A stretch of DNA of 64,000 nt from the IMG/VR virus record IMGVR_UViG_3300044972_000310, positions 1 through 64,000 of that record; one strand, written 5' to 3'. This DNA is from a virus. A program made the translations under genes and the position numbers. The notes under the pieces were generated by a model, which was not told the DNA's origin, did not search any database, and worked only from the letters and a program-made list of their open reading frames with translations. Positions 19,209-53,745 of the stretch are shown here, piece after piece. Each line of letters opens with the position of its first letter. Within the stretch, counting starts at the first letter, position 1.

Positions 19209-20105
19209 ATGCAGATTACAGAACTTTCACATCCAAAGAGTAGCAAGGGCCTTAACGAAAGCCTAGCTAAGAAATTTGGCTACAAATTAAACGTAGATAG
19301 CTTTACAATGGAGCAACTACGTGCAGCTCGCGATAAAATTACTATGGAACTTGCTGAGTTTGAAACAAGTAAGAATTACGATGCTGTTTACGAAAGTAAC
19401 ACGTATCAACGTGACCGTGCATTACTTGATGTAATCACCCAGGCAATTTCAGAGCGCACACTAAGCCCAGGCGAAGAAGGCAAGAAAGAAAAATATGTTA
19501 AAGGCATGAAGTCTAAGTCAGGCGAATTTAAAAAACGTTATGGCGATAAAGGCGAAGAAGTAATGCATGCCACAGCCAGCAAAATGGCCAAGAAAGAAAG
19601 TATCGATGAAGCAATGGAAGTACTACGTGGTGTTCTATCAGAAAGAACACTAACAGAAGGCGAAGAAGAAAAAGCAGCATTGATCATGAGCGCACGTGAT
19701 ATGGTTGACAAGGTCACAGGATGGCTAGAAGATACTGCATCATTGAAATCAGAAACCATGTTAGAATTAGTTGACTCTATCAGAGACGAACTAGGCAGCG
19801 ATATTAGCAGTCAGTATTCAGGCACAGTTAAACCAGCATTGGAAGAATTATACACAGTATTAGAAACAACTCGTACTACCCTAGCACAGGCAGTGGCTAT
19901 CCTAACAGGCGAAGAAGGCCCAGCTGGCCCGGCAGCAGCTCCAACAATGGGCATGCCAGGTGAAGAAGAATTCCCAAGCGGTGATGAATTTGCAGCAGCA
20001 GATGCAAGCACAGGTGGCGAAGAAGCTGCCGGTCGCGAAATGCGCGAGAACATTGCCTACAGCCGTAGACTAGGCACAATGTTAAGCCAGCCAAAAAAAA
20101 AGTAA
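19209..20105 (+). CDS. Acidic helical virion/scaffold-type protein, zero-frame product
   Basis: 298 residues starting MQITELSHPKSS (leader-like, I-T-E). Helical and strongly acidic, with ELAEFETSKNYDAV, a KYVKGMKSKSGEFKKRYGDKG segment and a Gly/Ala/Glu-rich region before residue 280. The reading frame ends ...QPKKK-stop directly after a run of nine A. The run forms an A-AAA-AAG slippery heptamer with a downstream hairpin, so a longer -1 product of 407 residues is predicted. Composition suits a prohead core or scaffold protein. Confidence 0.6.
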   Translation: MQITELSHPKSSKGLNESLAKKFGYKLNVDSFTMEQLRAARDKITMELAEFETSKNYDAVYESNTYQRDRALLDVITQAISERTLSPGEEGKKEKYVKGMKSKSGEFKKRYGDKGEEVMHATASKMAKKESIDEAMEVLRGVLSERTLTEGEEEKAALIMSARDMVDKVTGWLEDTASLKSETMLELVDSIRDELGSDISSQYSGTVKPALEELYTVLETTRTTLAQAVAILTGEEGPAGPAAAPTMGMPGEEEFPSGDEFAAADASTGGEEAAGREMRENIAYSRRLGTMLSQPKKK

Positions 20106-20133
20106 ATGAAGATGCGGATACACTTATCCGCAT
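20096..20133 (+). promoter_or_regulatory. Predicted -1 ribosomal frameshift signal
   Basis: The slippery heptamer A-AAA-AAG at 20096-20102 lies in the zero frame (codons AAA AAG), followed by stop TAA 20103-20105. A spacer of 9 nt leads to a perfect 9-bp stem ATGCGGATA (20112-20120), loop CACT, TATCCGCAT (20125-20133). The heptamer is the one used in E. coli dnaX. A homopolymer sequencing error is the main alternative. Confidence 0.7.
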
Positions 20134-20431
20134 ACTCAACACACTAAAATCTAGAGCAGACTCAAAAGGCACCCCAGCTCAATACAGCTGGGATGCTGTG
20201 TCAAATATGTTAAGCAATGTATCTGGTACACAAATGGACTATGATACATTTAAGAAAGAGTTTGACACAATCCCTCAATTAAAAAACATAGTTGCCCAAT
20301 TTGACGGGCAAGGCCTTACACTCAAAACTAAAGAAAAACCAGAAGCTACAAATAGTCAGCCACACAGTGCTGGCGGATTGGATGCATCTGCTAAAAGGGC
20401 TGCGGCGAAATCGCTCAAACAACCTGGTTGA
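20099..20431 (+). CDS. -1 frame extension of the 19209 gene
   Basis: Open frame of 109 residues after the slip site: VNEDADTLIRILNTLKSR, then YSWDAVSNMLSNVSGTQMDY, a hydrophobic QLKNIVAQFDGQGLTLK and a basic end ASAKRAAAKSLKQPG. The only internal starts are a GTG at 20198 and later ATGs without a ribosome site, so independent translation is unlikely. The region from residue 1 onward has coding character, which argues that it is read by frameshifting from the upstream gene or that the two frames are one gene in the true sequence. Confidence 0.6.
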   Translation, partial: KVNEDADTLIRILNTLKSRADSKGTPAQYSWDAVSNMLSNVSGTQMDYDTFKKEFDTIPQLKNIVAQFDGQGLTLKTKEKPEATNSQPHSAGGLDASAKRAAAKSLKQPG

Positions 20432-20461: not shown

Positions 20462-21151
20462 ATGACCCTACTAATAAACAAATTCAAATACGAAAAACTC
20501 TCTAGGGACGACAGCTCCGGTAAGCGTTTATACGCTACACCACAAGGGCATAAAGTCCCTAGTGTCACGACTGTACTGGACAAAACTAAGCCAGAAGAAA
20601 GTCGCATAGCACTGGCCAACTGGCGTAAAGCAGTAGGTGAAAAGAAAGCACAAGAGATCACTACAGAAGCTGCCAACCGCGGCACACGTATGCACAAGTT
20701 CCTAGAGGACTATGTCAAGGGTGAACCTATGAACGAGGGTGTTACTAACCCTTTTGCACAACAAAGTCAGAAGATGGCTAAGATTGTGATTGAAAAAGGC
20801 ATGTCAAATGTAAGTGAAGTATGGGGTAGTGAAGTACCCTTGTACTTTCCAGAACTATATGCGGGTACTACTGACTGCGTAGGTGTACATAGTGGTGACG
20901 AGAGTATCCTAGACTTCAAGCAGACTAACAAACCTAAGAAACTAGAGTACATTAGCGACTACTTTCTACAGCTAACAGCCTATGCCCTAGCGCATAATGA
21001 AGTACACGGCACTAATATACGCAAAGGCGTTATTCTAATGTGTAGCAAGGACTTTGAATACCAGGAGTTTATCTTAGAACCCAAAGACTTTGACTACTGG
21101 ACAGAAGAGTGGTGTAAACGAGTGGAGCAGTACTACCGTTTGAACAGCTAA
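20462..21151 (+). CDS. PD-(D/E)XK exonuclease
   Basis: 229 residues, RecB/MGME1-like phage exonuclease. Conserved elements: VPSVTTVLDKTKPEE, NRGTRMHKFLEDYV (helix before the core), then the catalytic strand G-T-T-D-C-VG followed by SILDFKQTNK, in which D and the D-x-K arrangement form the nuclease site, and YFLQLTAYALAH (QxxxY motif IV). Probably processes DNA ends in replication or recombination. The strong promoter directly at the ATG suggests early expression and a leaderless mRNA. Confidence 0.8.
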   Translation: MTLLINKFKYEKLSRDDSSGKRLYATPQGHKVPSVTTVLDKTKPEESRIALANWRKAVGEKKAQEITTEAANRGTRMHKFLEDYVKGEPMNEGVTNPFAQQSQKMAKIVIEKGMSNVSEVWGSEVPLYFPELYAGTTDCVGVHSGDESILDFKQTNKPKKLEYISDYFLQLTAYALAHNEVHGTNIRKGVILMCSKDFEYQEFILEPKDFDYWTEEWCKRVEQYYRLNS

Positions 21152-23211: not shown

Positions 23212-25533
23212 ATGACAACAATAACTGTAATCAAAAGAGACGGAAAAAAAGAGCCATTAATGATTGAAAAATGGCAGACACAGATTGCAAAGGTGTGTAG
23301 TGGGATTGCTGATGTTAGTCAATCAATGATTGAGATCAAAGCCCAACCACATTTTTATGATGGAATTACTACTAGAGAAGTAGATGAAATTACACTCAGA
23401 GCAATTGTGGATTTGATTGACGTAGAATCAAATCCAGATGTTGGTCATGTTAACTATCAATACGTAGCAGGCAAGCAACGTCTATCAATGTTGCGTAAGG
23501 ATGTTTATGGCGCCTACGAGCCTCCCCACCTTTACGAGATCGTAAAGACTAATGTGGCTACTGGATTATACACAGCAGAGCTTCTTGAGTGGTATGGTGA
23601 AGAAGACTGGAACAAGATGAATGACATGCTGGATCATGAAAAAGATGAACAGTATGGCTATGCGGCAATTGAACAATTAATTGAGAAGTACTTGGTTAAG
23701 AACCGTAGTACAAAACAAACATATGAGACTCCACAAATTAGATACATGGTTGCAGCCGCAACTGTGTTCCATAAAGAAGAACCTAACTCGGCTAGGATGC
23801 GCTATATCAAAGAATACTACAACGCCGCAAGCGATGGACTTTTTACTCTTGCTACTCCTGTATTGGCTGGCCTTGGTACTCCTACTAAACAGTTTAGCTC
23901 TTGCGTACTCATTCGTTCGGATGATGATCTAGATTCTATTTTCGCTTCTGGTGAGATGATGGCCAAGTATGCCAGTAAACGTGCTGGCATTGGTTTAGAG
24001 ATTGGTCGACTACGTCCATTAGGTAGTCCAATTCGCGGTGGTGAGATTATGCACACAGGTATGATACCTTTCCTGAAAAAATGGTTCGGTGATTTACGAT
24101 CATGTTCACAAGGAGGTATTCGTAATGCAAGTGCCACTGTTTTCTATCCTATTTGGCATCATCAGTTTGATGATCTTATTGTTCTTAAAAACAACCAAGG
24201 AACAGAAGAAACCCGAGTCCGTCATATGGATTATGGGGTTGTGCTTAGTGCCTTCTTCTGGAGACGATTTAAAAACAAAGAAGACATAACATTCTTTGAT
24301 CCCAACGAAGTACCAGACTTGTATGAAGCGTTCTATCAAAACACAGAACGCTTTGAAGAGCTTTACGTAAAGTACGAACGTACTCCTGGTTTACGTAAGA
24401 AGACCATGTCCGCTGAAGAAGTATTCAAGTCGGGCATACTAAAAGAGCGCACTGATACAGGGCGTATCTATCTAGTGTTCATTGACAATGTAATGAACCA
24501 GGGTCCGTTTGACCCAGAGTACCATACCATTTATCAGAGTAATCTTTGCTGTGAAATCCTCTTACCTACTCGCTCTTTCAAGCGTCTTGATGACGCTGAT
24601 GGTCGCATTGCTTTATGTACGCTCGGTAGTATCAACTGGGGAGCTTTCCGCAATCCAGAAGATATGCGTAGGGCTTGCCGTATACTTCACCGCAGTCTTA
24701 ACAATATCCTTGATTACCAAGACTTTTTAAGTATTCAAAGTAAATTGAGCAACGATGAAATTCGTCCATTGGGCATTGGTATTACTAATCTCGCCTACTG
24801 GCATGCCAAGCGTAGTTTAAAGTATGGAGAGAAAGATTCTCTCCATGAAGTTAAAAGTTGGATGGAACATCAAGCCTACTACTTAACTGAAGCTTCAGTT
24901 GAGCTAGCTAAGGAACGTGGTCGTTGTGAAGGCAGCGATCGTACACGTTATGGCCAAGGTGTATTCCCCTGGGAACTACGTGCTAAGGGTGTAAATGAAT
25001 TAGCAGACTTTACTCCGGAACTAGACTGGGAGACATTACGAGTACAGATGAAAACACATGGTGTGCGCAATGCTACGCAAATGGCAGTTGCTCCAGTAGA
25101 GTCTAGTTCTGTTGTTATTAACAGTACCAATGGTATTGAAATGCCAATGAGCCTAATCTCAGTTAAAGAATCCAAAGCAGGATCGTTTGTACAAGTTGTA
25201 CCTGAGTACCACAAGTTGAAGAACAAGTATCAACTCATGTGGGAACAAAAAGACTGCGATGGTTATATTAAGACAGCAGCCGTTATTGCTGCTTACACTG
25301 ATCAGTCAATCAGTACTAACACATTCTACAATCCTGCACACTTTGCAGATCGTAAAGTGCCAACCACACTGATTGCCAAGAACTTGATGCAAGCCCACAT
25401 GTGGGGATTGAAGACATTCTACTACAGCTTGATTAACAAGCAAGGTAGTAAGGCTGTTGCAGAAGACGCACCAACTATGCTAGAACCTATTAACTTTGAT
25501 GACGAGGAAGACTGCGAGTCTTGTAAACTGTAA
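23212..25533 (+). CDS. nrdA: Ribonucleoside-diphosphate reductase alpha subunit (class Ia)
   Basis: 773 residues, full length. It has an N-terminal ATP-cone (VIKRDGKKEPLMIEKW), the active-site Cys in KQFSSCVL, the thiyl-radical region SNLCCEILLPT and LCTLGSINWG, and the C-terminal redox pair in DCESCKL that is re-reduced by glutaredoxin. Makes dNDPs for phage DNA synthesis with NrdB (26185) and the glutaredoxin (27304) of the same operon. The class II aldolase gene is inserted between nrdA and nrdB. Its stop overlaps the aldolase start (TAATG). Confidence 0.95.
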   Translation: MTTITVIKRDGKKEPLMIEKWQTQIAKVCSGIADVSQSMIEIKAQPHFYDGITTREVDEITLRAIVDLIDVESNPDVGHVNYQYVAGKQRLSMLRKDVYGAYEPPHLYEIVKTNVATGLYTAELLEWYGEEDWNKMNDMLDHEKDEQYGYAAIEQLIEKYLVKNRSTKQTYETPQIRYMVAAATVFHKEEPNSARMRYIKEYYNAASDGLFTLATPVLAGLGTPTKQFSSCVLIRSDDDLDSIFASGEMMAKYASKRAGIGLEIGRLRPLGSPIRGGEIMHTGMIPFLKKWFGDLRSCSQGGIRNASATVFYPIWHHQFDDLIVLKNNQGTEETRVRHMDYGVVLSAFFWRRFKNKEDITFFDPNEVPDLYEAFYQNTERFEELYVKYERTPGLRKKTMSAEEVFKSGILKERTDTGRIYLVFIDNVMNQGPFDPEYHTIYQSNLCCEILLPTRSFKRLDDADGRIALCTLGSINWGAFRNPEDMRRACRILHRSLNNILDYQDFLSIQSKLSNDEIRPLGIGITNLAYWHAKRSLKYGEKDSLHEVKSWMEHQAYYLTEASVELAKERGRCEGSDRTRYGQGVFPWELRAKGVNELADFTPELDWETLRVQMKTHGVRNATQMAVAPVESSSVVINSTNGIEMPMSLISVKESKAGSFVQVVPEYHKLKNKYQLMWEQKDCDGYIKTAAVIAAYTDQSISTNTFYNPAHFADRKVPTTLIAKNLMQAHMWGLKTFYYSLINKQGSKAVAEDAPTMLEPINFDDEEDCESCKL

Positions 25534-26183
25534 TGTTAGAAACTATATGTGACATAATGGTAGACGCTTACAAGCGTAATTGGATTACCAGTCGTGATGG
25601 TAATGTCAGCATACGACACCACGACCGTGACCACTTTTATATCACACCGAGTGGTGTGCGTAAGCAAACACTACAACCTGATCAATTCAAGAAGATTGGT
25701 ATTGAGAAAGGCTACTGGGGCCAACCACCGACTATATACCATGCAACTAAAGAGTTAGAATACACTGAAATCAGTGCCAATCTAAAGCCCAGCGGAGAAC
25801 TTCCCTTGCACTTTGGCTTACAGAAAGAAATGGGACAGCATACTGGCGAAGTTCGTGTAGTAGTACACGTTCATCCTACTTATTGTATTGCTGCCATGCA
25901 TGCCGGCATTAACCTTAGCACTATCAGTGATGCGTTTCCAGAACTCAACCGCTACACCAAGGTAGCACCCAATGTAGGCGATGTGCCTCCTATTAGCCAA
26001 GAGCTTGCGGATCAGTGCCATAAGATGTTACAGTTAGATAAAGACGGCAATATTGCTTATGATATCGTAGGTATCAAAGGGCATGGGGTAGTTGCTATTG
26101 ATACAACACCGTGGCGTGCATACGAGCATATAGAAAGATTAGAACATATTTGCAAGATAGTACTTGCAAGTGGAAAATATTAA
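25533..26183 (+). CDS. Class II aldolase/adducin-family protein
   Basis: 216 residues: ITSRDGNVSIRHHDRDHFYITPSG at the N-terminus, the Zn-site block VVVHVHPTYCIAAMHAG with HxH, and GIKGHGVVAIDTTPWRAYEHIERLEH with the third His. Relatives include fuculose-phosphate aldolase and methylthioribulose-phosphate dehydratase; the substrate is not evident. The position between nrdA and nrdB, coupled to nrdA, is unusual and suggests a link to nucleotide or pentose metabolism. Confidence 0.8.
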   Translation: MLETICDIMVDAYKRNWITSRDGNVSIRHHDRDHFYITPSGVRKQTLQPDQFKKIGIEKGYWGQPPTIYHATKELEYTEISANLKPSGELPLHFGLQKEMGQHTGEVRVVVHVHPTYCIAAMHAGINLSTISDAFPELNRYTKVAPNVGDVPPISQELADQCHKMLQLDKDGNIAYDIVGIKGHGVVAIDTTPWRAYEHIERLEHICKIVLASGKY

Positions 26184-26184
26184 A

Positions 26185-27285
26185 ATGTCAAAACAACAAT
26201 ATAATTTAAACACAAAGACAGACTATCTAAGCCGTAAGATGTTTCTGGATCCAGCAGGACCTGTAACTATTCAACGCTTTGAAGAAGTTAAATACAAGAA
26301 GATTGCAGACTTCGATGCCACAGCCCGTGGTTTCTTCTGGCAACCCGAAGAGATTAGTCTTACCAAAGACGCTAACGATTTTAAGGATGCAAGCGATGCA
26401 GTTAAACATATATTCACTAGCAACCTACTACGTCAAACAGCACTTGATAGTTTGCAAGGTAGAGGACCAACACAGGTATTCACTCCTGTTTGTAGTCTCC
26501 CCGAAGTCGAAGCTCTCATGTACAACTGGGGATTCTTTGAAACAAATATCCATAGTAAAAGCTACAGCCATATAATCCGCAACATTTATAATGTGCCTAA
26601 GGATGTGTTTAACACAATCCATGACACTAAAGAAATTGTGGACATGGCGTCTAGTGTGGGCAACTACTATGACAAGCTACACGTTATCAATTGCCGTAAA
26701 GAACTTGGGCAAGAAGTCACTGAGAAAGAACACGTTAAAGCCGTTTGGATGGCACTACATGCCAGCTATGCACTAGAAGCATTCCGCTTTATGGTTAGCT
26801 TTGCTACAAGTTTGGCCATGGTTGAAAACAAGATCTTTATCGGCAACGGTAACATCATCAGCTTGATCCTACAAGACGAATTATTGCACAAAGGCTGGAC
26901 AGCCTATATGATTAACCAAGTTATCAAAGAAGATCCTCGCTTTGCTGAAGCTAAACAAGAATGTGAAGCAGAAGTATATGCATTGTATATGGATGTGATT
27001 CGGGAAGAAAAAGATTGGGCCAGCTACCTGTTTAAGATGGGACCAGTTATTGGACTCAATGCAAACATTCTGCGTGACTTTGTGGACTACACCGCAGTAG
27101 ATGCATTAAAGCAAATTGGTATTAAGTACCAAGCGGCTGCTCCTAAGTCAACTCCAATTCCTTGGTTTAACAAGCATACTGATACTAGTAAGAAACAAAC
27201 AGCACTACAAGAAAACGAATCGACTAATTACGTCATCGGAGTTATGGGTGAAGGTATTGACTATGATGCCTTGCCTGTGCTATAA
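26185..27285 (+). CDS. nrdB: Ribonucleoside-diphosphate reductase beta subunit
   Basis: 366 residues from the ATG at 26185 (an upstream TTG overlaps the aldolase gene). Diiron ligands are visible: D88 in ALDSLQGR, E119, H123, E in SYALEAFRF, and E-L-L-H in LQDELLH; the radical Tyr is Y127. Between E119 and H123 the sequence is E-T-N-I-H, one residue longer than the E-x-x-H of E. coli NrdB (see findings). It is followed by a promoter and the glutaredoxin gene. Confidence 0.92.
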   Translation: MSKQQYNLNTKTDYLSRKMFLDPAGPVTIQRFEEVKYKKIADFDATARGFFWQPEEISLTKDANDFKDASDAVKHIFTSNLLRQTALDSLQGRGPTQVFTPVCSLPEVEALMYNWGFFETNIHSKSYSHIIRNIYNVPKDVFNTIHDTKEIVDMASSVGNYYDKLHVINCRKELGQEVTEKEHVKAVWMALHASYALEAFRFMVSFATSLAMVENKIFIGNGNIISLILQDELLHKGWTAYMINQVIKEDPRFAEAKQECEAEVYALYMDVIREEKDWASYLFKMGPVIGLNANILRDFVDYTAVDALKQIGIKYQAAAPKSTPIPWFNKHTDTSKKQTALQENESTNYVIGVMGEGIDYDALPVL

Positions 27286-34767: not shown

Positions 34768-36150
34768 ATGAAGATTACATTAGCAGATAAATTTATCGCA
34801 TACCTTGCGCTATTCAGTGGATTGACTATATCTGCTGTGGCCATTTGGTACTCAGTAGCAGGACTGGTTAGCATTTTTGCGGCCGCAGTAATACCTATTA
34901 TTGTTATGGGTGTGGTATTAGAGGTTAGCAAACTTATTGCCACAGTATGGCTCAAGCTGAATTGGTCTCGTGCTCCTGTGTTTATCCGATCATATCTGAT
35001 AGCGGCCATTGCTATCCTAATGATTATAACATCAATGGGTATCTTTGGATTCCTAAGTAAAGCACACAGCGATGCTGGTCTAGTGTCAGGCGATGTGCAA
35101 GCCAAAATTGCAGTCTACGATGAAAAAATTAAAACAGCCAAAGAAAATATTGAAGCCAACCGCAAACAACTTAAACAGATGGATGAGGCGGTTGACCAAG
35201 TCATGGGTCGCAGTTCAGATGAGAAAGGTGCCGACAAAGCGGTTTCAATACGCAAAGCTCAGTCTCGTGATCGCAGTGCGTTGGCCAAAGACATTGAAGC
35301 CAACCAGAAGCTTATTGCTACTCTTAATGACCAAGCCGCACCTATTCGAGCAGAAGTACGAAAAGTAGAAGCGGAGGTAGGCCCAATCAAATACATTGCG
35401 GCATTTGTCTATGGAGATAATCCAGATGCTAACGTACTAGAAAAAGCTGTCACTTGGGTAATCATTATTATCGTATCAGTCTTTGATCCGTTAGCAGTTA
35501 TCCTATTGCTTGCCAGTCAATATAGTTTCCAATGGTTCCGTAAGTCCCGTGAAGATGAAGAACTATTACATAGCACAGTCCCATTGCATGTTGCAGATGA
35601 AACTCCTAAAGAGCCTATGAAGTTTGTTGATCCGGGAGAGCATCCTGATGATCACTTAGAAACGGAACTGGCCGAACCTGAGCCGGTTGTAGAGAAAACT
35701 CTAGCAGAACAACATCCTTACTTAAATCAGCCGTTCAGTCATTTTAAAAATTTAACACCCGTAGTTCATAAACCTGAACCTGTTGTTGAAGAAAAAACTG
35801 ATCCACTAGACCAATGGAACAAAATGATTGAAGCGGCTGAAGAAGAAGTAGCTAAAGAAAAAACTCCTGACGAAATTCTCAACGAAGGTTTAAACGAACC
35901 AACATACCAATTACTTCCAGAATTACAAGAAACATTGAACAAGACAGAGTGGCCAGATAATCCTGCAAAAGGCGACCGATGCGTAATGTTCGTTGACGGT
36001 GCTAATCGAAGTTTTATCTTTAATGGTAACGTTTGGATAGATGCTGATCATTCAGATCCAGGAGCTGTTAATGCCTTGGACGAATCAAAAAAAAAGAGCA
36101 CATACATAATCAAAGATCAGAATCAACAGATCAAGAAGACCAAAGAGTAA
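34768..36150 (+). CDS. Large multi-pass membrane protein with coiled coil
   Basis: 460 residues. Membrane helices at about 8-30, 32-54, 73-95 and 226-251 (VTWVIIIIVSVFDPLAVILLL). Residues about 110-215 are a coiled coil. The C-terminal half is soluble, acidic, Pro-rich, and ends in a small domain with RCVMFVDGANRSFIFNGNVW. Seen in T4-like marine phages; similar in style to DUF4407 proteins. Role unknown. Confidence 0.65.
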   Translation: MKITLADKFIAYLALFSGLTISAVAIWYSVAGLVSIFAAAVIPIIVMGVVLEVSKLIATVWLKLNWSRAPVFIRSYLIAAIAILMIITSMGIFGFLSKAHSDAGLVSGDVQAKIAVYDEKIKTAKENIEANRKQLKQMDEAVDQVMGRSSDEKGADKAVSIRKAQSRDRSALAKDIEANQKLIATLNDQAAPIRAEVRKVEAEVGPIKYIAAFVYGDNPDANVLEKAVTWVIIIIVSVFDPLAVILLLASQYSFQWFRKSREDEELLHSTVPLHVADETPKEPMKFVDPGEHPDDHLETELAEPEPVVEKTLAEQHPYLNQPFSHFKNLTPVVHKPEPVVEEKTDPLDQWNKMIEAAEEEVAKEKTPDEILNEGLNEPTYQLLPELQETLNKTEWPDNPAKGDRCVMFVDGANRSFIFNGNVWIDADHSDPGAVNALDESKKKSTYIIKDQNQQIKKTKE

Positions 36151-36153
36151 GTT

Positions 36154-36240
36154 ATGTGCAGAACTCAGAACAAAATCCAAATTCATTATGGACAAGAATT
36201 AAACACCGAGACAGCTAATTATAATATACATAAGCGATAA
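36154..36240 (+). CDS. Possible 28-residue peptide
   Basis: Short frame MCRTQNKIQIHYGQELNTET and eight more residues, filling the gap between two genes. No ribosome site other than weak AGAGT upstream. Kept only because it fits the spacing. Confidence 0.25.
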   Translation: MCRTQNKIQIHYGQELNTETANYNIHKR

Positions 36241-38043: not shown

Positions 38044-39915
38044 ATGAGCAAAGTCATCGGTATCGATTTAGGTACAACAAATTCATGTGTAGCTATTATT
38101 GAAAATGGCGTCGCAAAAGTTATTGAGAATTCAGAAGGCGCACGTACTACACCTAGTATTGTTGCATACGCTAATGATGAAATTCTAGTAGGCGCAAGTG
38201 CAAAGCGTCAAGCAGTAACAAACCCCAAGAACACAATCTATGCTAGCAAGCGACTAATTGGACGTAAGTTTGATGAAGCGGCTGTGCAAAAAGACATTGA
38301 TCTAATGCCTTACACCATCATCAAGGCAGATAACGGTGATGCTTGGGTACAGGTAAATGAGGACAAACTAGCACCTCCACAAATTTCAGCTGAAGTACTT
38401 CGCAAGATGAAAAAGACTGCTGAGGACTATTTAGGTGCAGAGGTTACACAGGCAGTTATTACAGTACCAGCTTACTTTAATGACAGCCAACGTCAAGCCA
38501 CTAAGGATGCAGGTAAGATTGCAGGTCTTGAAGTGCTACGTATTATTAACGAGCCTACTGCGGCTGCACTGGCCTACGGTGTTGATAAGGCTGACAAGAA
38601 AGACAGCAAAGTTGCAGTATACGACTTGGGTGGTGGAACTTTTGATATCTCTATTATTGAGATTGCTAATGTCGATGGCGACAAACAGATTGAAGTGTTA
38701 AGTACGAACGGTGATACATTCTTAGGTGGTGAAGACTTTGACCAACGCATCATGGACTTCTTGGTTGATGAGTTTAAGAAAGAAAATGCAATTGATCTTA
38801 AGAAAGACATGCTGGCTCTACAACGCCTAAAAGAGGCTGCTGAAAAAGCCAAGATTGAATTGTCCAGCAGTGCCAGTACCAGCGTTAACTTGCCCTATAT
38901 TACAGCAGACGCTAATGGCCCTAAGCATATGAACGTTACTATTAGCCGTAGTAAGCTAGAAAGCCTTGTTGAAGAATTGATTCAACGTAGTATTGAGCCA
39001 TGCCGTATTGCTATTAAAGATGCAGGTGTGGATGTTAGCGAAATTGACGAGGTTATCCTTGTTGGTGGTATGACACGCATGCCTAAGGTACAAGAAGCAG
39101 TTGAGAAGCTGTTCGGTAAGGCTCCACGTAAGGATGTTAACCCAGACGAAGCAGTTGCAGCGGGTGCGGCTGTACAAGGTGCTGTGCTAGCAGGTGACCG
39201 TAATGACGTATTGTTACTTGACGTTACTCCATTGAGCTTGGGTATCGAGACCATGGGCGGCATTATGGCCAAGTTGATCAACAAGAATACAACTATCCCA
39301 ACTAAGGCTAGTCAAACATTCTCAACAGCAGAAGACAACCAACCAGCAGTTACTATCAAAGCGTTCCAGGGTGAGCGTGACCTAGTACAACATAACAAGC
39401 TATTAGGCGAGTTTAACTTAGAAGGTATCCAGCCACAACGTCGTGGTCAGCCACAGATCGAAGTTACATTGGATATCGATGCCAACGGTATCATGCACGT
39501 AAGTGCTAAAGATAAAACCACTGGTAAAGAAAACAAGATTACTATCAAGTCAGACTCGGGTCTAACTAAAGAAGAAATCGAACGTATGGTACAAGAAGCA
39601 GAAGTTAACGCAGAGAGTGATAAGAAGACTCGTGAGTTGATCGAAGCACGTAACCAAGCAGAAGCACAGATCCATAGCATTAAGAAAGATATGGAAGAAG
39701 TAGATGCAGAGTTATCGGCCGAAGTTAAAGACAAAGTTAACGAAGCTATCACTTCAGTAGATGCAGCAATTATCACAGAAGATAAAGATGCCATTACACA
39801 AAAACTTAGCGACTTGTTTACTGCGGCTCAACCAGTGATGGAAGCTAAACAAAAGAAAGAAGAAGCTAAGAAGAATGAAACTCCGGTAGACGCAGAGTTT
39901 ACTGAAGTTAACTAA
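38044..39915 (+). CDS. dnaK: Chaperone DnaK (HSP70)
   Basis: 623 residues, nearly full length (E. coli 638). ATPase signatures: [14 protein letters not shown] at the N-terminus, the second signature [13 protein letters not shown] and [14 protein letters not shown]. Substrate-binding domain with [17 protein letters not shown], ending DAEFTEVN, a short lid tail. Refolds proteins and can assist IscU via LPPVK. The gene has a late box, structured leader and ROSE-like hairpin. No dnaJ or grpE seen, so host co-chaperones are needed. Confidence 0.97.
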
Positions 39916-53269: not shown

Positions 53270-53303
53270 GTAATCGCTCCTACAAATATATTTACCAAAA
53301 TGC

Positions 53304-53332
53304 TTGCGTATAAATACTAGTGACTGTATAAT
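53304..53332 (+). promoter_or_regulatory. Sigma70 promoter TTGCGT-17-TATAAT for tmRNA, with TATAAATA
   Basis: -35 TTGCGT 53304-53309, 17-bp spacer, -10 TATAAT 53327-53332. An exact late box TATAAATA lies at 53309-53316. Transcript start is expected near 53339, just before the acceptor piece. Confidence 0.7.
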
Positions 53333-53342
53333 AACAGTTATT

Positions 53343-53404
53343 GTTGTAATCCCTTCAAAGTGAAGGCATTCTGGACGCGGGTTCGACTCCCGCCAGGTCC
53401 ACCA
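53343..53404 (+). ncRNA. ssrA: Permuted tmRNA, acceptor piece (3' half of tRNA-like domain)
   Basis: Contains a small hairpin CCTTCA-AAG-TGAAGG (53352-53366), the T arm GCGGG-TTCGACT-CCCGC, the acceptor strand CAGGTCC (53394-53400), discriminator A and CCA (53402-53404). CCA is encoded. The acceptor strand pairs with GGGCCTG at 53506-53512, including a G3-U70 pair, the alanyl-tRNA synthetase identity element. Because the 3' half comes first, the gene is circularly permuted. Confidence 0.85.
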
Positions 53405-53505
53405 AAAGGATATTTATGAAGTACACCGCATTGTGCCCAAGTTGTTTTATTAGATTTAGTTGGGTAATGAGGAAAGGCTTAACAAAACATAAGTGTTTTT
53501 CTGAT
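53405..53505 (+). other. Intervening segment of permuted tmRNA
   Basis: About 101 nt between the two tmRNA pieces, expected to be removed from the precursor. It also holds most of a possible small ORF (53416-53532). Confidence 0.65.
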
Positions 53506-53532
53506 GGGCCTGCCATGGTTTCGACAGGGTGA
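53416..53532 (+). CDS. Possible 38-residue zinc-finger-like ORF inside tmRNA precursor
   Basis: ATG at 53416 with AAAGGA 6 nt upstream. Product carries C7-x2-C10 (LCPSC) and later H-x-C (TKHKC), a pattern that could bind zinc, and runs into the 5' end of the tmRNA coding piece, stopping at 53532. Could be coincidence. If translated it would compete with tmRNA maturation. Confidence 0.25.
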   Translation: MKYTALCPSCFIRFSWVMRKGLTKHKCFSDGPAMVSTG

Positions 53533-53707
53533 GATAATAGAGACGGCAACACGGTAGGCGATGACCGTAAATCAAGCAAATAAAGTAAATGCAACAGCAA
53601 ATACATTCGAGTATTTCCAAGTTGACTTCGACGTTACAGCAATGAACGACGAGCAATTTGCAATCGCAGCCTAAGAAACTGCAACTCCGGGGTAGGACTT
53701 ACCTTGT
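53506..53707 (+). ncRNA. ssrA: Permuted tmRNA, coding piece with tag ORF
   Basis: Starts GGGCCTG at 53506 (acceptor strand), then CCATGGTTTCGACAGG (D-loop-like region). The tag frame ends TAA at 53672-53674 with ...MNDEQFAIAA. The H5 stem GCAG/CTGC encloses the stop, as in E. coli. The resume codon may be GCA 53591, which gives a 27-residue tag, or a later GCA nearer the conserved NDE-type end. Right boundary is approximate; a hairpin GGTA-GGACT-TACC lies near the end. Confidence 0.8.
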
Positions 53708-53718
53708 AAAATAAACAA

Positions 53719-53745
53719 CCATAGGACCTTCGGGTCCTATCTTTT
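53719..53745 (+). terminator. Terminator after tmRNA
   Basis: ATAGGACC-TTCG-GGTCCTAT followed by CTTTTT. Confidence 0.85.

Follow-up and report, generated by a model that had tools for sequence, protein, structure and literature searches.

An open reading frame that stops directly after a run of nine A's, with the -1 frame running on beyond it, may be one of two neighbouring genes, a decayed or misassembled gene, or the first part of a longer protein reached by slippage of either the ribosome or the RNA polymerase. Which of these applies is the question raised by a locus in the window analysed here, a stretch of 64 kb out of a 66-kb IMG/VR virus record.

Anatomy of the junction

The elements at the end of the upstream gene are the following.

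19209-20105, plus strand: upstream (zero-frame) ORF of 298 aa, mostly helical, with an acidic linker; homologue of RaK2 ORF135
20093-20101, plus strand: run of nine A's (A9) containing two in-frame heptamers that overlap, A_AAA_AAA (20093-20099) and A_AAA_AAG (20096-20102)
20096-20102, plus strand: slippery heptamer A_AAA_AAG
20103-20105, plus strand: zero-frame stop codon TAA, abutting the heptamer
20112-20133, plus strand: perfect 9-bp hairpin with a 4-nt loop, 9 nt past the heptamer
20102-20431, plus strand: -1 frame extension of 109 residues, a predicted winged-helix-like domain and a disordered tail with a Lys/Arg-rich end, closed by TGA (20429-20431)

Read directly, the zero frame closes with CCA (20091-20093), AAA, AAA, AAG (20100-20102) and TAA; the spacer between heptamer and hairpin is TAAATGAAG (20103-20111, 9 nt), and the hairpin pairs ATGCGGATA (20112-20120) with TATCCGCAT (20125-20133) around the loop CACT. 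An earlier note on this DNA had described the heptamer, the immediate stop, the 9-nt spacer and the stem-loop, and its description is exact to the base. Translation also reproduces the open -1 frame of 109 residues that it reported, together with a predicted fusion of 407 residues against 298 for the short product; the first codon after the shift is GTA (20102-20104). The note further claimed a lone GTG without a ribosome site as the only separate start. GTG 20198 is indeed the first start in the -1 frame, although a weak Shine-Dalgarno-like sequence (-4.0 kcal/mol) does lie upstream of it; this codon falls within the conserved domain, and initiation there would drop the domain's first helix. 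The ATG that abuts the stop (20106) reads in frame 0 and opens a frame of only 13 codons.

Single parts of this arrangement are unremarkable by themselves. Two A9 runs are observed in the window against 2.9 expected from its composition, and a frame open for 109 codons is found from about 15% of starting points in this sequence. A search of Rfam returned no frameshift element at the junction. The heptamer A_AAA_AAG is among the most shift-prone in E. coli (PMC5009743; PMC4066793).

The hairpin of the window is stronger than those of shuffled sequences (z -4.9). Within the window's clade (24 sequences, gapless alignment), changes on both sides are seen in six of ten pairs, none of 500 shuffles attains the observed covariation, and the score drops sharply when the register is slid. 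Across the family, structure below z -2 is found downstream of 43 of 87 junctions, versus upstream of 3 of 87, and an upstream hairpin sought before the run was not found. A downstream stimulatory structure at about 5-9 nt is thus present, with covariation, in the window and its clade, and is unseen near the site in many distant relatives, including many marine ones and several clades that have no clear hairpin there. On these alignments the hairpin is a feature of the clade and the A-run a feature of the family. The earlier note's word for the signal, textbook, is only partly apt: the hairpin is confined to the window's clade, a run of A9-A10 is kept in place of a bare heptamer, inspection by eye found no dnaX-like internal Shine-Dalgarno sequence, and slippage by RNA polymerase retains some probability. 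A further clade (clade II, L036-L060) has a strong hairpin of its own, CCCTTAG...CTAAGGG, which was not counted as a stimulator because it lies at least 17 nt past the heptamer and overlaps a conserved coding stretch, PLVLTLR.

Relatives with and without the run

Relatives were drawn from IMG/VR viral contigs by searches with both parts and their alignments, down to about 40% identity, and comprise 110 distinct full-run junctions (86, with L119 left out, and 24 from a later search). The run is A9 in 92 of them, A10 in 16, A11 in one and A8 in one; in the sole A8 junction (L062), a substitution preserves both the heptamer and the phase. The downstream domain lies in the -1 phase in all 110, with the zero-frame stop 0-1 codon past the heptamer. 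No start codon is conserved among the full-run relatives, and a Shine-Dalgarno-led -1-frame start ahead of the domain is seen at one of 87 loci. Two hallmarks of a bacterial -1 frameshift signal (X_XXY_YYZ) are therefore found at the junction, namely a conserved in-frame slippery heptamer and a second coding frame, in -1 phase, without its own start; also found is the hallmark of programmed transcriptional slippage, an A/T run of about nine or more whose length is conserved (109/110).

Codon choice around the run is equally distinctive. Elsewhere in these genes a single in-frame A9 is seen among 27,919 codons, and at the junction it stands at the gene end in all full-run relatives. The final codon of the run is AAG in 83 junctions, AAA in 18 and AAC in 9; since AAG makes up 83 of the 101 lysine codons at this position, against 28% elsewhere in these genes (72% AAA), it is favoured at the run end. 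The codon before the run is almost always TCA, which accounts for one third of serine codons, so that an A is chosen there far beyond codon usage. With dN/dS of 0.03-0.3 in both parts for most pairs, both the upstream and the -1 parts are, by this measure, under purifying selection.

A natural control is provided by a minority of relatives without the run (13 distinct proteins and 9 further junctions, about 20 junctions in all), in which the downstream domain can occupy any of the three phases (0, 1 or 2) and has its own ATG shortly past the stop, usually behind a Shine-Dalgarno-like GGA or by stop-start coupling. One of them, L138, retains the peptide SKKK spelled AAG AAG AAG. The absence of the run where the domain has its own ATG, together with lysines kept as AAG in L138, shows that selection acts on the nucleotide sequence of the run beyond the lysines alone. 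L119 (2438-2854) appears to be an intermediate, with the heptamer in a shortened run (A6-G-AAA-TAG) and a Shine-Dalgarno-led ATG in the -1 frame.

As findings that would speak against frameshifting, the earlier note had named relatives with one uninterrupted frame and relatives lacking the slippery site. Neither comparison refuted it. No relative of this gene has a single uninterrupted frame or an A-run of a length that would fuse the two; relatives without the site do exist, and they give the downstream domain an independent start. Homopolymer runs are error-prone, and an error of sequencing or assembly, or decay of the gene, could in principle lie behind the junction, but this reading is exceedingly improbable given one register in 110 distinct junctions from many metagenomes and across this range of identity, the lack of any contig of the gene with a frame-fusing run, and the selection on both parts. 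Two independent genes, the second started by reinitiation or from a non-standard start, would match the mode of expression in some relatives and in RaK2-like phages; we consider this very unlikely for the full-run relatives, since their -1 frame has no conserved start codon and almost no Shine-Dalgarno sequence, since the -1 phase is fixed in the 110 junctions and variable where a start exists, and since the hairpin and the A-run would be left unexplained. Taken together, the invariant -1 phase, the run-less relatives with their own ATG, the selection on both parts and the covarying hairpin make -1 recoding to a fusion at the A9 site very likely.

The two proteins and their neighbourhood

The link to named phages was obtained through BFVD fold matches and profile search; tblastn searches of INPHARED phages with the parts returned no useful match, and Pfam offered no convincing domain in either part. 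The model of the upstream protein is largely helical and includes a disordered linker of acidic residues; the match to PHROG 14154 ('virion structural protein') holds for 50 of 60 members. A search with the protein's profile picks out a single gene per phage in Atu_ph07, SCTP-2, RaK2, GAP32 and Vibrio phage 2.275.O, and by profile-profile comparison the protein is homologous to RaK2 ORF135 (E 3e-10). RaK2 ORF135 and ORF136 and their CBB counterparts are all annotated as virion structural proteins, and according to the RaK2 paper mass spectrometry identified 54 proteins of the virion (PMC3622015). For the -1 domain the model is confident over about residues 10-80, in the order helix-strand-helix-helix-strand-strand. 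Its nearest PDB folds are mostly winged helices with weak E-values (best 0.017), and winged-helix-like is accordingly a predicted fold class for this domain, not a statement of homology.

The ORF135-ORF136 pair of the RaK2-like phages (RaK2, GAP32, CBB, PBECO4 and SE_PL, as well as Vibrio phage 2.275.O, Salicola phage SCTP-2 and Agrobacterium phage Atu_ph07) resembles the junction in its homologous upstream protein, in the small ORF that comes next and, in most, in the exonuclease that follows; nrdA and nrdB are also present in RaK2. It differs in that the second gene has its own ATG and a variable phase, and shows no significant sequence similarity to the -1 domain: hhalign of the domain against ORF136 was not significant, and the domain's profile found nothing in RaK2, SCTP-2 or Atu_ph07. 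The -1 domain is thus a counterpart of ORF136 by position and size, not by sequence. The markers of this synteny in the window are the following.

20462-21151, plus strand: exonuclease (PD-(D/E)XK), which also follows the pair in RaK2-like phages
23212-27285, plus strand: nrd region, NrdA (23212-25533) and NrdB (26164-27285), recognised from sequence and ordered as in RaK2

The neighbourhood consists of small structural-type ORFs, the exonuclease, a fibre-like protein and the nrd genes, in the order of the RaK2 ORF135/136 cassette followed by exonuclease and nrd genes. The earlier note had called the two frames head-type, a label that finds no support here: the annotation of ORF135 says virion structural protein and gives no place in the particle, and in a relative of 365 kb some 200 kb separate the upstream gene from that of the major capsid protein. 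Nor does the junction gene occupy the lambda-type position between major tail and tape-measure genes, and no tape-measure gene was recognised beside it.

Elsewhere in the window, a full-length DnaK/Hsp70-like gene lies at 38044-39912 on the plus strand (about 66% identity to records annotated as DnaK), and a phage tmRNA of the permuted betaproteobacterial type at 53291-53744 on the same strand (Rfam RF01850, 134 bits; RF04321, 135 bits). The tmRNA is matched in 8 of 11 related phage records searched, in four of them above the family cut-off, a hint that the host may be a betaproteobacterium and that the phage tmRNA is conserved. One contig of the phage family, L210 (PALK01000009.1), sits in a MAG labelled Rickettsiales; it is exactly as long as the viral contig of L147 (29,883), and the label may reflect binning only.

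Ribosomal or transcriptional slippage

The window contains a second site of the same kind; its run and the one at 20093 are the only in-frame A9 runs in the window's long ORFs.

34768-36150, plus strand: second gene with a conserved A9, TCA AAA AAA AAG, the run at 36087-36095, 17 codons before the stop
36090-36218, plus strand: continuation of the second gene in the -1 frame, 42 codons and a stop, conserved in relatives

The 36087 run proved to be conserved, not incidental: in 9 further distinct relatives both the run and a -1 extension of 40-44 residues are kept (YVQNSEQ..NSLWTRIKHRD in the window). Substitutions are concentrated on the third position of the zero frame within the overlap and on that of the -1 frame past the stop, so that both frames look coding. 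No hairpin was seen at this site. One relative, L331, carries ten A's at the site and apparently has both frames joined in one; its contig ends soon after.

In our preferred account, which we think probable, programmed ribosomal -1 slippage would let a single virion gene yield both a protein of 298 aa and one of 407 aa that carries an additional C-terminal domain. The backward slip of the tRNAs, by one base, would occur on A_AAA_AAG or, a codon sooner, on the overlapping A_AAA_AAA, aided in the window's clade by the hairpin 8-9 nt downstream; a share of ribosomes would thereby bypass the stop, and the fusion would set the proportion of subunits that carry this domain to those that lack it. A comparable signal is that of E. 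coli dnaX, in which A_AAA_AAG is likewise followed by a simple stem-loop (as described in PMC3711429); the window differs in that no upstream Shine-Dalgarno sequence is seen and in that the stop lies at the heptamer, the shift giving the longer product. The ribosome is favoured by the covariation of the structure that lies 8-9 nt further on and by the AAG bias of the last codon; against it are the keeping of A9 in place of a 7-nt heptamer, the many marine relatives without a clear hairpin near the site, and a spacer in the window that, at 9 nt, is long against the usual 5-8.

The alternative is programmed transcriptional slippage, in which RNA polymerase would add one A (or lose two) on the A9, so that some mRNA encodes the fusion in frame, with no slip, or an additional one, by ribosomes. 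Nine A's are enough for efficient slippage by bacterial RNA polymerase (PMC5009743), and the run of nine or more in all but one junction, preceded by an A through TCA, speaks for this reading, as do the clades lacking a clear hairpin and the hairpin-free second site. In its conserved length the run recalls the A/T runs of about nine in Thermus dnaX and Shigella type III genes (PMC5009743). The window's clade differs from those systems in its downstream hairpin and its AAG preference; the former is hard to explain by polymerase slippage because it is untranscribed at the moment of the slip, whereas the latter may merely hold the run at nine. Nor is there any structure upstream of the run, and L062, with only eight A's, still retains the heptamer. 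A reporter test of one gene cluster gave 10%, 40% and 63% frameshifting for 7, 9 and 11 A's (PMC3711429), figures that, as given there, do not tell ribosomal from transcriptional slippage. On balance we favour slippage by the ribosome, which is likely, over slippage by the polymerase, which we rate as rather unlikely. Slightly more doubtful still is a combined scheme, in which two or more unrelated genes of the lineage would share a standard recoding element, TC-A9-G, with RNA-polymerase slippage primary and the hairpin tuning the ribosome in some clades. Under that scheme the phages of this lineage would adjust the proportions of their virion proteins through programmed transcriptional slippage.

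The system is a new case of a known kind. As in the tail assembly chaperones G/GT of lambda, a -1 frameshift near the end of a morphogenesis gene would append a C-terminal domain to part of the product (PMC5009743), although G and GT are absent from virions and the relatives here are annotated as virion proteins. As in 10A/10B of T7 and T3, a virion protein would exist in two forms by -1 frameshift (PMC5009743), although the proteins are unrelated, the signal is another and the window's protein is not the major capsid protein. Its particular contribution is an evolutionary control of unusual clarity. In a tree built quickly from the joined proteins, with several forks left open, the separate-gene state requires two changes and is nested among run-bearing relatives. 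Separate neighbouring genes, as in RaK2-like jumbo phages, are probably the older state; the uncultured lineage would have fused them through a slippery site, and some sublineages would have reverted to a separate start. Repeated switching between frameshift fusion and separate genes would then constitute a natural experiment on the purpose of the frameshift, with the A-run dissolving even where the lysines persist.

A search of part of the literature found no earlier account of a frameshift at this junction, which makes novelty a lead, not a proof. Gene callers will split the fusion product in two. Together, the junction and the 36087 site form a testable system for separating ribosomal from transcriptional slippage, and the junction gene would enlarge, by a family from a large uncultured jumbo-phage lineage, the set of phage structural genes for which programmed frameshifting is assumed.
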